Of a stretch of DNA of 64,000 nt, positions 36,285-38,014 are shown piece after piece. The notes under the pieces are model-generated. The model was not told the DNA's origin. It did not search any database and worked only from the letters and a program-made list of their open reading frames with translations. The stretch is from positions 310,001 through 374,000 of the forward strand of contig NZ_VOOS01000001.1 in assembly GCF_007993035.1 (NCBI RefSeq), given 5' to 3'. This DNA comes from Vicingus serpentipes (GTDB lineage Bacteria > Bacteroidota > Bacteroidia > Flavobacteriales_E > Vicingaceae). Each line of letters opens with the position of its first letter. Positions within the stretch are counted from its first letter, which is position 1. The position numbers were made by a program, and so were the translations under genes.

Positions 36285-36592
36285 AATTATATATTATATA
36301 TGTTTTATAATTGTTTTGACTGCAACGAAATTAATAATAATAGCCCATATAAAAAAAATGATACTCATCAATAACTAACATGTTTTTAACATAAAATAGA
36401 ATTTAAAAAATTGATAAGAATTTGTTTAAAATTTTGATTTTAAATTGACAAAATAATTGTAGAAAATAGAACTCATTAACTATTATAAAAATATCAAATA
36501 GGGCTTTTTAATTTTTTAAAATAATTTTTGACGAAATAAAATTATTTTGAAAGTATTTTTTATATAGTTTTGCCTCATCAACTAAACAAATA
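36285..36592. other. Divergent intergenic region between etfB and the asnA leader
   Basis: 308 bp of very AT-rich sequence, containing the etfB promoter region on the left and the -7 box of the attenuated amino-acid operon on the right (36565). No gene is supported apart from the leader ORF that follows. Confidence 0.5.
36547..36572 (+). promoter_or_regulatory. Promoter of the attenuated asnA/aromatic operon
   Basis: TAGTTTTG (36565-36572) matches the -7 consensus; TTG at 36547-36549 lies 15 nt upstream, slightly closer than usual. RNA would start near 36578, about 15 nt before the first leader ORF. Confidence 0.6.
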
Positions 36593-36640
36593 ATGAAAAC
36601 AAATTTTAATAATAACTTTTATTTTAATCCTAAAAACTAG
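36593..36640 (+). CDS. Leader peptide 1 (Asn/Phe-rich attenuator ORF)
   Basis: 15 codons encoding MKTNFNNNFYFNPKN: six Asn, three Phe and one Tyr, ending in TAG. It lies ~15 nt downstream of a promoter and immediately before a terminator, with asnA (asparagine synthesis) and the aromatic genes downstream. The RNA can fold as 1:2 (TCCTA 36628-36632 with TAGGA 36638-36642, covering the stop), 2:3 (GAAAGGTT 36644-36651 with AGCCTTTC 36675-36682) or 3:4 (the terminator). Ribosomes stalling on scarce Asn-tRNA or Phe/Tyr-tRNA would free segment 2 and prevent termination. The peptide probably has no other function. Confidence 0.75.
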   Translation: MKTNFNNNFYFNPKN

Positions 36641-36672
36641 GACGAAAGGTTATTTTATATAAAATATTTACG

Positions 36673-36704
36673 AAAGCCTTTCAATTTTGAAAGGCTTTTT
36701 TTTT
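36673..36704 (+). terminator. Attenuator terminator 1
   Basis: Arms AAAGCCTTTC (36673-36682) and GAAAGGCTTT (36689-36698), 6-nt loop, followed by a run of T. Its 5' arm is also complementary to GAAAGG in the leader just after the stop codon. Confidence 0.9.
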
Positions 36705-36714
36705 GAAACAAAAC

Positions 36715-36774
36715 ATGATGAACTTTTACTTTAATAACAATTTTAATTATGCAACCCCACCTGGAGGAGACTGA
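36715..36774 (+). CDS. Leader peptide 2 (Asn/Phe/Tyr-rich attenuator ORF)
   Basis: 19 codons encoding MMNFYFNNNFNYATPPGGD: six Asn, three Phe and two Tyr, with a ribosome-stalling-prone Pro-Pro-Gly-Gly end. The core NFYFNNNFN is the exact reverse of the leader 1 core NFNNNFYFN. It begins 11 nt after terminator 1, so it is translated only when terminator 1 is read through. Its last codons contain GGAGGAGA, whose GGAGA can pair with TCTCC (36803-36807) in terminator 2, a possible antiterminator. It is followed by asnA. Confidence 0.7.
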   Translation: MMNFYFNNNFNYATPPGGD

Positions 36775-36794
36775 AATTTTATATCAATTTTTTT

Positions 36795-36827
36795 AAAGCC
36801 TTTCTCCAAACAGAGAAAGGCTTTTTT
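36795..36827 (+). terminator. Attenuator terminator 2, before asnA
   Basis: Perfect 12-bp stem: AAAGCCTTTCTC (36795-36806) and GAGAAAGGCTTT (36813-36824), 6-nt loop, then T run. The 5' arm can also pair with the 3' arm of terminator 1 (GAAAGGCTTT). Confidence 0.92.
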
Positions 36828-36868: not shown

Positions 36869-37906
36869 ATGAGCGAATTAATTTTACCAAAAGATTACAA
36901 ACCTGCACTTGATGTTGAGACAACAGAAAAGGCAATTAAAAAAATTAAAGACTACTTTCAAGTAGCCATTGCAGATGAATTATTATTAAGAAGAGTTACT
37001 GCTCCTATAATCGTTTTAAGAGGAACAGGAATTAACGATGATTTAAATGGTATTGAAAGACCAGTATCTTTTCCTATTAAAGGAATGGACGAACAAAAAG
37101 CAGAAGTAGTTCACTCGCTAGCAAAATGGAAACGTTTAAAGTTAGCCGATTTAAAATTAGAAACTGGTCGTGGAATTTATACTGACATGAATGCTCTAAG
37201 ACCAGATGAAGAACTAGGAAGCTTACACTCTATATATGTTGACCAATGGGATTGGGAAAAAACAATTGACCAAAAAGATAGAACTATAGATTATCTAAAA
37301 GAAACTGTAGAGAAAATCTTTAATGTATATAAAAGAACTGAAGAACATTTAACAAAAGAGTACCCAGAAATAAAACAAACTTTACCAAGTAAAATCACTT
37401 TTGTTTATGCTGAAGATTTATTAAGAGAATACCCTGAATTAACTGTAAAACAGAGAGAAACAGAAGCTGCTAAAAAGTATGGTGCTGTTTTCATAATTGG
37501 AATAGGTGGAAAACTTTCAAACGGAGAACCTCACGATGGTAGAGCTCCAGATTATGATGATTGGACAACTGAAACTAAAGAAGGTTATTACGGTTTAAAC
37601 GGAGATATTGTTTTCTGGAACCCTACAATTGAAAGAGCTTTCGAAGTATCATCAATGGGAATTAGAGTTGACAAAAAAGCGTTATTAAAACAATTGGAAA
37701 TTTCTGGTGAAGAAAGTAGAAAAGAATTTTTGTTTCATAAGTTATTATTAAATGATCAGCTTCCTTACACAATTGGTGGCGGAATTGGCCAATCGAGAAC
37801 TTGCATGTACTTGTTACAAAAGGCTCATGTTGGTGAAGTTCAAGCTAGTATTTGGCCAAAATCAATGAAAGAAATCTGTTCTTACTCTGGAATTAAATTA
37901 TTATAA
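36869..37906 (+). CDS. asnA: Aspartate-ammonia ligase (AsnA-type asparagine synthetase)
   Basis: 345 residues, the family length. It makes asparagine from aspartate, ammonia and ATP. AsnA signatures: VTAPIIVLRGTGINDDLNGIERPVSF, AKWKRLKLADLKLETGRGIYTDMNALRPDEE, LHSIYVDQWDWEK and GGGIGQSRTCMYLLQKAHVGEVQ, the class II tRNA-synthetase-like motif 3. It is preceded by two tandem leader-peptide/terminator units rich in Asn codons and followed after one base by a Tyr/Phe leader ORF. It is therefore the first structural gene of an operon continuing into aromatic amino-acid synthesis. Confidence 0.97.
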   Translation: MSELILPKDYKPALDVETTEKAIKKIKDYFQVAIADELLLRRVTAPIIVLRGTGINDDLNGIERPVSFPIKGMDEQKAEVVHSLAKWKRLKLADLKLETGRGIYTDMNALRPDEELGSLHSIYVDQWDWEKTIDQKDRTIDYLKETVEKIFNVYKRTEEHLTKEYPEIKQTLPSKITFVYAEDLLREYPELTVKQRETEAAKKYGAVFIIGIGGKLSNGEPHDGRAPDYDDWTTETKEGYYGLNGDIVFWNPTIERAFEVSSMGIRVDKKALLKQLEISGEESRKEFLFHKLLLNDQLPYTIGGGIGQSRTCMYLLQKAHVGEVQASIWPKSMKEICSYSGIKLL

Positions 37907-37907
37907 A

Positions 37908-37961
37908 ATGAACAAAAGCATCACATACTTTTTTTATTATTTCTTCAACTTCAAAAATTGA
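37908..37961 (+). CDS. Leader peptide 3 (Tyr/Phe-rich pheA attenuator ORF)
   Basis: 17 codons encoding MNKSITYFFYYFFNFKN: five Phe and three Tyr, with eight of nine residues from 7 to 15 aromatic, comparable in character to enterobacterial PheL. It begins one base after the asnA stop, so it is translationally coupled to asnA. TTCTTCA (37941-37947, in Phe codons) can pair with TGAAGGG (37986-37992), overlapping the 5' arm of terminator 3. Stalling at the earlier Tyr/Phe codons would leave this free to form an antiterminator. Prephenate dehydratase is next. Confidence 0.85.
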   Translation: MNKSITYFFYYFFNFKN

Positions 37962-37987
37962 GGGTTACCTAATCATGTTTAAAACTG

Positions 37988-38014
37988 AAGGGAGCCTAAT
38001 AAGCTCCCTTTTTT
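37988..38014 (+). terminator. Attenuator terminator 3, before pheA
   Basis: Arms AAGGGAGC (37988-37995) and GCTCCCTT (38003-38010) with a 7-nt loop, then T run to 38014. It lies 27 nt after the aromatic leader stop and 21 nt before pheA. Confidence 0.93.

Follow-up and report, generated by a model that had tools for sequence, protein, structure and literature searches.

The analyzed window, a DNA stretch of 64 kb, contains two short Asn-rich ORFs between positions 36593 and 36827. Each of them is followed by a strong intrinsic terminator, and the asnA gene is located directly downstream (Table 1). This arrangement had been proposed in a first-pass annotation of the same DNA, and the coordinates, the folds, and the match of the encoded protein to TIGR00669 (397 bits versus a cut-off of 293) all agree with it. 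The genes upstream of the leaders, by our reading two electron-transfer-flavoprotein-like ORFs, are encoded on the minus strand, and asnA is encoded on the plus strand. The two terminators folded with free energies of -15.3 kcal/mol (36672-36699, z -6.0) and -17.0 kcal/mol (36795-36824, z -5.0), respectively, and in both cases none of 200 shuffled sequences folded as well.

Table 1. Features of the asnA leader region, in window coordinates.
Feature	Position	Strand	Remarks
Bacteroidota-type -7 promoter element TAGTTTTG (TAnnTTTG)	36565-36572	+	28 nt before leader ORF 1; promoter function inferred
Leader ORF 1, MKTNFNNNFYFNPKN and stop codon	36593-36640	+	6 Asn of 15 residues; Asn-rich ORF conserved in L083 and L084 (window's family), L103 (a different order), and a GC-rich family
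Possible segment 1, Asn codons AAUAACUUUU	36611-36620	+	Can pair with 36645-36654; MFE fold
Small hairpin TCCTA/TAGGA around the stop codon of ORF 1	36628-36642	+	Arms 36628-36632 with 36638-36642
Segment 2 of unit 1, GAAAGGTT, 5' arm of the antiterminator	36644-36651	+	Pairs with AGCCTTTC, 36675-36682; covaries; 2:3 duplex beats 200/200 shuffles
Terminator 1 (segments 3 and 4, T run)	36672-36704	+	36672-36683 with 36688-36699; segment 3 core 36675-36682; covaries
Leader ORF 2, MMNFYFNNNFNYATPPGGD and stop codon	36715-36774	+	5 Asn of 19 residues
Segment 2 of unit 2, TGGAGGAG	36762-36769	+	Pairs with 36801-36808; 8 bp, -10.2 kcal/mol (untrimmed arm)
Terminator 2 and T run	36795-36827	+	36795-36806 with 36813-36824; segment 3 core 36801-36808
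asnA, aspartate--ammonia ligase	36869-37906	+	345 aa; TIGR00669 equivalog above cut-off; PF03590

The motif TAnnTTTG was found as an exact match 24-33 nt upstream of ORF 1 in all four loci with tandem leaders. It was absent before the second units of the same four loci, and the plus strand of the window contains no other copy from ORF 1 to the end of asnA. As the only element precedes ORF 1 and none precedes unit 2, the motif distribution indicates that both units are probably arranged in series on one transcript.

Conservation and RNA pairing of the leaders

In the family to which the window belongs, AsnA matches were present in 5 of 46 genomes, three of which have proteins with 77-100% identity. 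All three, i.e., the window and two relatives at 77-78%, contain the tandem pair in front of asnA. The leaders are MKKLNNNNLFNNQF and MKNMKTNINNNLNNNPPPEEGK in L083 and MRNFNNNNFFNYPII and MMNNFFNNNFNYNPP in L084, both from this family, and asnA of L103, from a different order, is likewise preceded by a pair (MKSLKNNFFNYNSNNNIRAERLFY and MLQFRINNNNTNKSPP). A family with a GC content of about 60% contains a single unit at 37 of 46 asnA loci, with a run such as NNNSNNN, and one unit with the leader MMCFVNNNSGNNNTGFILPEVC precedes asnA in L087, which belongs to a further family. The combination of leader ORF, antiterminator, and terminator before asnA is conserved in at least four families of Bacteroidia. 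The comparison with relatives that the first-pass annotation had suggested thus revealed conserved leader ORFs and stems in these families. Conservation across the Flavobacteriales remains unconfirmed, because the window's order was represented by only one family, with 46 genomes, in the set compared.

No Asn leaders were seen at the asnA relatives L003-L082, which are mostly from Bacteroidales. In the window's family, 30 asnB loci were inspected and lacked them as well; the terminators seen there belong after the preceding gene, and control of asnB by an Asn leader was rejected for these loci. L102, with MSNIYNSLLNYPCNLAGS and a terminator, was considered as a further case and excluded as too weak. 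A covariance model (R1) was used to look for other genes with Asn leaders; it was applied to 395 genomes of Bacteroidia and to 390 from the order that includes the GC-rich family. The inspected matches outside asnA loci were plain terminators, a Lys/Met-rich leader of asd, branched-chain amino acid leaders of ilvD, and orphan leaders of genomes that have lost asnA, whereby the weak matches were only partly inspected.

For 44 of 46 units, the pairing between segments 2 and 3 surpassed at least 198 of 200 shuffles. The two exceptions were second units, i.e., those of the window and of L103; with the untrimmed arm, the helix of L103 reached -11.3 kcal/mol, and that of the window has the length and energy given in Table 1. 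In an alignment of 29 sequences, 97.8% of the 2:3 helix and 94.5% of the terminator were paired, and sliding the partner by one column reduced pairing to 58-72%. Double changes occurred in both helices, from GC to AU (CCTTCC to CCTTTC) and, in L103, from AU to GC. Because the changed cells are few and the sequences are related, this covariation is regarded as support, not as proof. Two tests of membership among ribosome-mediated attenuators were met, namely, an antiterminator that excludes the terminator (2:3 versus 3:4, in 44 of 46 units and with covariation) and an intrinsic terminator between the leader ORF and the structural gene.

The first-pass annotation had described three mutually exclusive pairings in unit 1 that follow the 1:2, 2:3, 3:4 logic. 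Their positions were correct, but exclusivity applies only to 2:3 and 3:4. The TCCTA/TAGGA hairpin and GAAAGGTT have no base in common, which rules out this hairpin as the 1:2 pairing and leaves it as a separate stop-codon hairpin; relatives retain its pairing with altered bases (TCAGT/ACTGA in L083). The Asn codons designated possible segment 1 in Table 1 would compete with the 2:3 helix through the pairing seen in the MFE fold of the window, and this pairing was weak in comparison with shuffles (34/200). Over all units, no more than 28 of 46 had a 1:2 pairing at 10/200 shuffles or better, and support for a real 1:2 protector is weak. In an equilibrium calculation without a ribosome, 2:3 was favored in 37 of 46 units, and the model thus suggests that untranslated leaders may read through; the zero values obtained with a ribosome on segment 2 hold by construction. 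In some single units the stop codon is close to segment 3, and a ribosome located there could hinder the terminator.

The sensed amino acid and the proposed mechanism

Asn accounts for 28% of all leader residues, and the next most common residues (Arg, Leu, Phe) for less than 10% each. The 46 units before asnA also passed a further membership test: their short leader ORFs abound in codons for the amino acid made by the operon. The leaders had been annotated as rich in both Asn and Phe/Tyr codons; only Asn turned out to be the conserved residue, while Phe and Tyr vary and may follow in part from complementarity to the antiterminator. The second ORF is Asn-rich with a Pro-Pro ending in all four tandem loci. 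The Asn frame is intact in every unit, whereas single-base indels shift the frame after the run (RDWKAI, RDGRLLV, VIGRLLF). The nucleotides GGAAGGCTATTG are kept despite these shifts (GGAAGGCTGTTG in the case of VIGRLLF). Since the frame is kept through the Asn run and the nucleotides are kept after it, we infer that translation matters up to the end of the run and RNA pairing beyond it.

Codon usage and spacing were also quantified. In families other than that of the window, and with L103 counted twice, AAT made up 228 of 303 Asn codons in the leaders (75%) versus 7 of 143 in the asnA genes (5%). This excess would fit the use of a disfavored codon for sensitivity, as occurs in leu leaders, and the leader Asn codons are also constrained by local pairing. 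The last Asn codon is located a median of 15 nt (typically 14-15) before segment 2. If a ribosome is assumed to cover about 13 nt beyond the first A-site base, one that stalls at this codon would just leave segment 2 free, and under this assumption the membership test for control-codon placement relative to segment 2 was met.

On the basis of the anatomy, conservation, covariation, codon identity, and spacing, all of which are read from sequences, we consider it very likely that the region contains two serial attenuators of transcription, both ribosome-mediated and both responsive to charged Asn-tRNA. Transcription would start just upstream of leader ORF 1. With ample Asn-tRNA, the ribosome would read the Asn run, reach the stop codon, and cover segment 2, so that segment 3 would fold with segment 4 and RNA polymerase would stop at terminator 1. 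With scarce Asn-tRNA, the ribosome would stall in the Asn run before reaching segment 2; segments 2 and 3 would then pair, terminator 1 would be blocked, and transcription would reach unit 2, where the Asn test would be repeated before asnA. This scheme implies that asnA would be switched on at asparagine shortage. As read-through of both units is needed, the two read-through fractions should multiply. Leader translation, premature termination, the response to Asn, and a benefit of the tandem arrangement are inferences, and experimental data are not available for any of them.

A more general proposal is put forward only tentatively, as we regard it as possible but somewhat less than evenly supported. 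It states that an Asn-specific class of leader-peptide attenuators exists in Bacteroidia, and that some lineages contain two in-series sensors of different design, with a stop-codon hairpin in unit 1 and Pro-Pro next to the antiterminator in unit 2 (4/4 tandem loci). Multiplied read-through would give a steeper response than one unit, and the disfavored AAU would serve as the sensing codon.

The Phe and Tyr codons in the window leaders, together with the pheA operon that follows asnA, raise the question of whether Phe/Tyr, or Phe, Tyr, and Asn jointly, are sensed within the control of that operon. In genome G030, pheA is preceded by a leader containing 5 Asn, 5 Phe, and 2 Tyr, which also points in this direction, but G030 has lost asnA, and the leader is therefore probably the leftover of an asnA unit. 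Phe and Tyr are very scarce in the leaders of L083; in families other than that of the window, there is almost no Tyr and pheA does not follow asnA; and pheA has its own Phe/Tyr leader, which is located between asnA and pheA. Phe/Tyr sensing was thus rejected on conservation, and we regard it as improbable. Still less credence is given to the possibility that a ligand or tRNA is sensed directly by the RNA, as in a riboswitch or a T-box, and that the Asn codons are a by-product of pairing. The Asn codons do join local pairings. However, the Asn frame is intact in every unit despite the later frame-moving indels, and, apart from the Asn codons, units of different families have little sequence in common before segment 2. 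Rfam yielded no T-box or riboswitch match and no fitting family; the best sub-threshold match was Phe_leader (RF01859), with 28.0 bits versus a gathering score of 55.

It was also considered whether the leaders are a coincidence of an AT-rich region, in a genome of 30% GC where AAT and AAC are common, and whether the terminators merely end upstream transcripts. A detector for an Asn-rich short ORF followed by a terminator was run on both strands of the window and on simulated sequence. The simulated sequence, 400 kb with the composition of the intergenic region, was drawn from a dinucleotide Markov model of that region. It indeed contained 21 short ORFs rich in Asn, but none of them had a terminator, while in the 64 kb of the window just the two ORFs described here fulfilled both conditions. 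Coincidence is refuted by the conservation of the same leaders in genomes of about 60% GC, and, with the upstream genes on the opposite strand, there is no upstream transcript to end. We therefore regard its probability as negligible and retain serial attenuation in response to Asn-tRNA as the preferred interpretation.

Relation to known attenuators and other leaders

Ribosome-mediated attenuators are known for the trp, his, phe, leu, thr, and ilv leaders of enterobacteria. The asnA leaders share with them a short ORF with codons for the product, a segment common to antiterminator and terminator, and a spacing at which ribosome stalling frees segment 2. They differ in the specificity for Asn, the tandem arrangement in some lineages, the weak 1:2 protector, and the phylum. 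In Firmicutes, Asn-specific T-boxes precede asnA and asnS, and the T-box RNA binds tRNA directly without translation. The signal, the gene, and transcription attenuation are the same; in contrast, a T-box covariance model did not match the window or seven relatives. In the Salmonella mgtCBR leader, two leader units answer different signals, whereas both units of the asnA tandem appear to answer Asn. Two short ORFs in the one mgtCBR leader are linked to attenuation (PMC3641672), and, unlike asnA, mgtCBR is not an amino-acid biosynthesis gene. A transcriptome study of Flavobacterium psychrophilum describes conserved elements before pheA and hisG and infers leader-peptide attenuation before amino-acid operons, i.e., the same type of mechanism in the same phylum, and its main text mentions neither asparagine nor asnA (PMC9723704). 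The pheA leader of the window is of this kind.

The first-pass annotation had called an Asn-sensing tandem before asnA unusual. The open literature searched yielded no Asn leader-peptide attenuator, although an earlier prediction of an Asn leader is not excluded. The mechanism is a known one, and the Asn specificity and the tandem for one signal appear to be undescribed in that literature. Asparagine joins the amino acids with inferred leader-peptide attenuation on the comparative evidence of dozens of genomes, and it does so in a phylum in which attenuators are little studied. The tandem is also a natural system in which to ask whether two serial attenuators sharpen a response.

Leaders without their gene were also found. 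Two genomes without an AsnA match, G464 and G488, have retained an orphan Asn leader and its terminator (L240 and L241, 1501-1645), with eroded Asn runs (SNNSTNN and MNNSANN). In the window's family, only 4 of 46 genomes match this pheA, and three of these have asnA immediately upstream of the pheA operon. In the fourth (locus L189 of G030), asnA has been lost, the unit-1-like leader MNNFFNNYFFNYSRT discussed above and its terminator are left before the pheA leader, and pheA contains an in-frame TAA stop codon.

The window also contains a Phe/Tyr-rich leader, MNKSITYFFYYFFNFKN, and a terminator (37908-38014) directly before pheA (prephenate dehydratase) and the aromatic operon. By analogy with those inferred in flavobacteria, it is a putative Phe/Tyr attenuator. 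The pheA leader of L083, MTTTFYNTYFFIYPKYRTER (2636-2750), has the layout of unit 1, TCCTA...AGGAC AGAAAGGT ... AAAAGCCTTTC, with Phe and Tyr codons at the positions of the Asn codons of unit 1. Judged from this comparison, it looks as if the specificity was changed by codon replacement, which suggests that replacing codons alone can switch the specificity of the device.

Two further types of leaders were met in the comparison. L242 (1501-1890) contains the tandem branched-chain leaders MKQVINIQTIITIVIESQ and MKLNNITITVVIITGPTG, each followed by a terminator, before an ilvD-like gene, and putative tandem leader attenuators are therefore not limited to asnA. In three genomes of one family (L190, L193, and L195, about 1501-1630), a Lys/Met-rich leader (MKMICK...) and a terminator precede a gene similar to that for aspartate-semialdehyde dehydrogenase.
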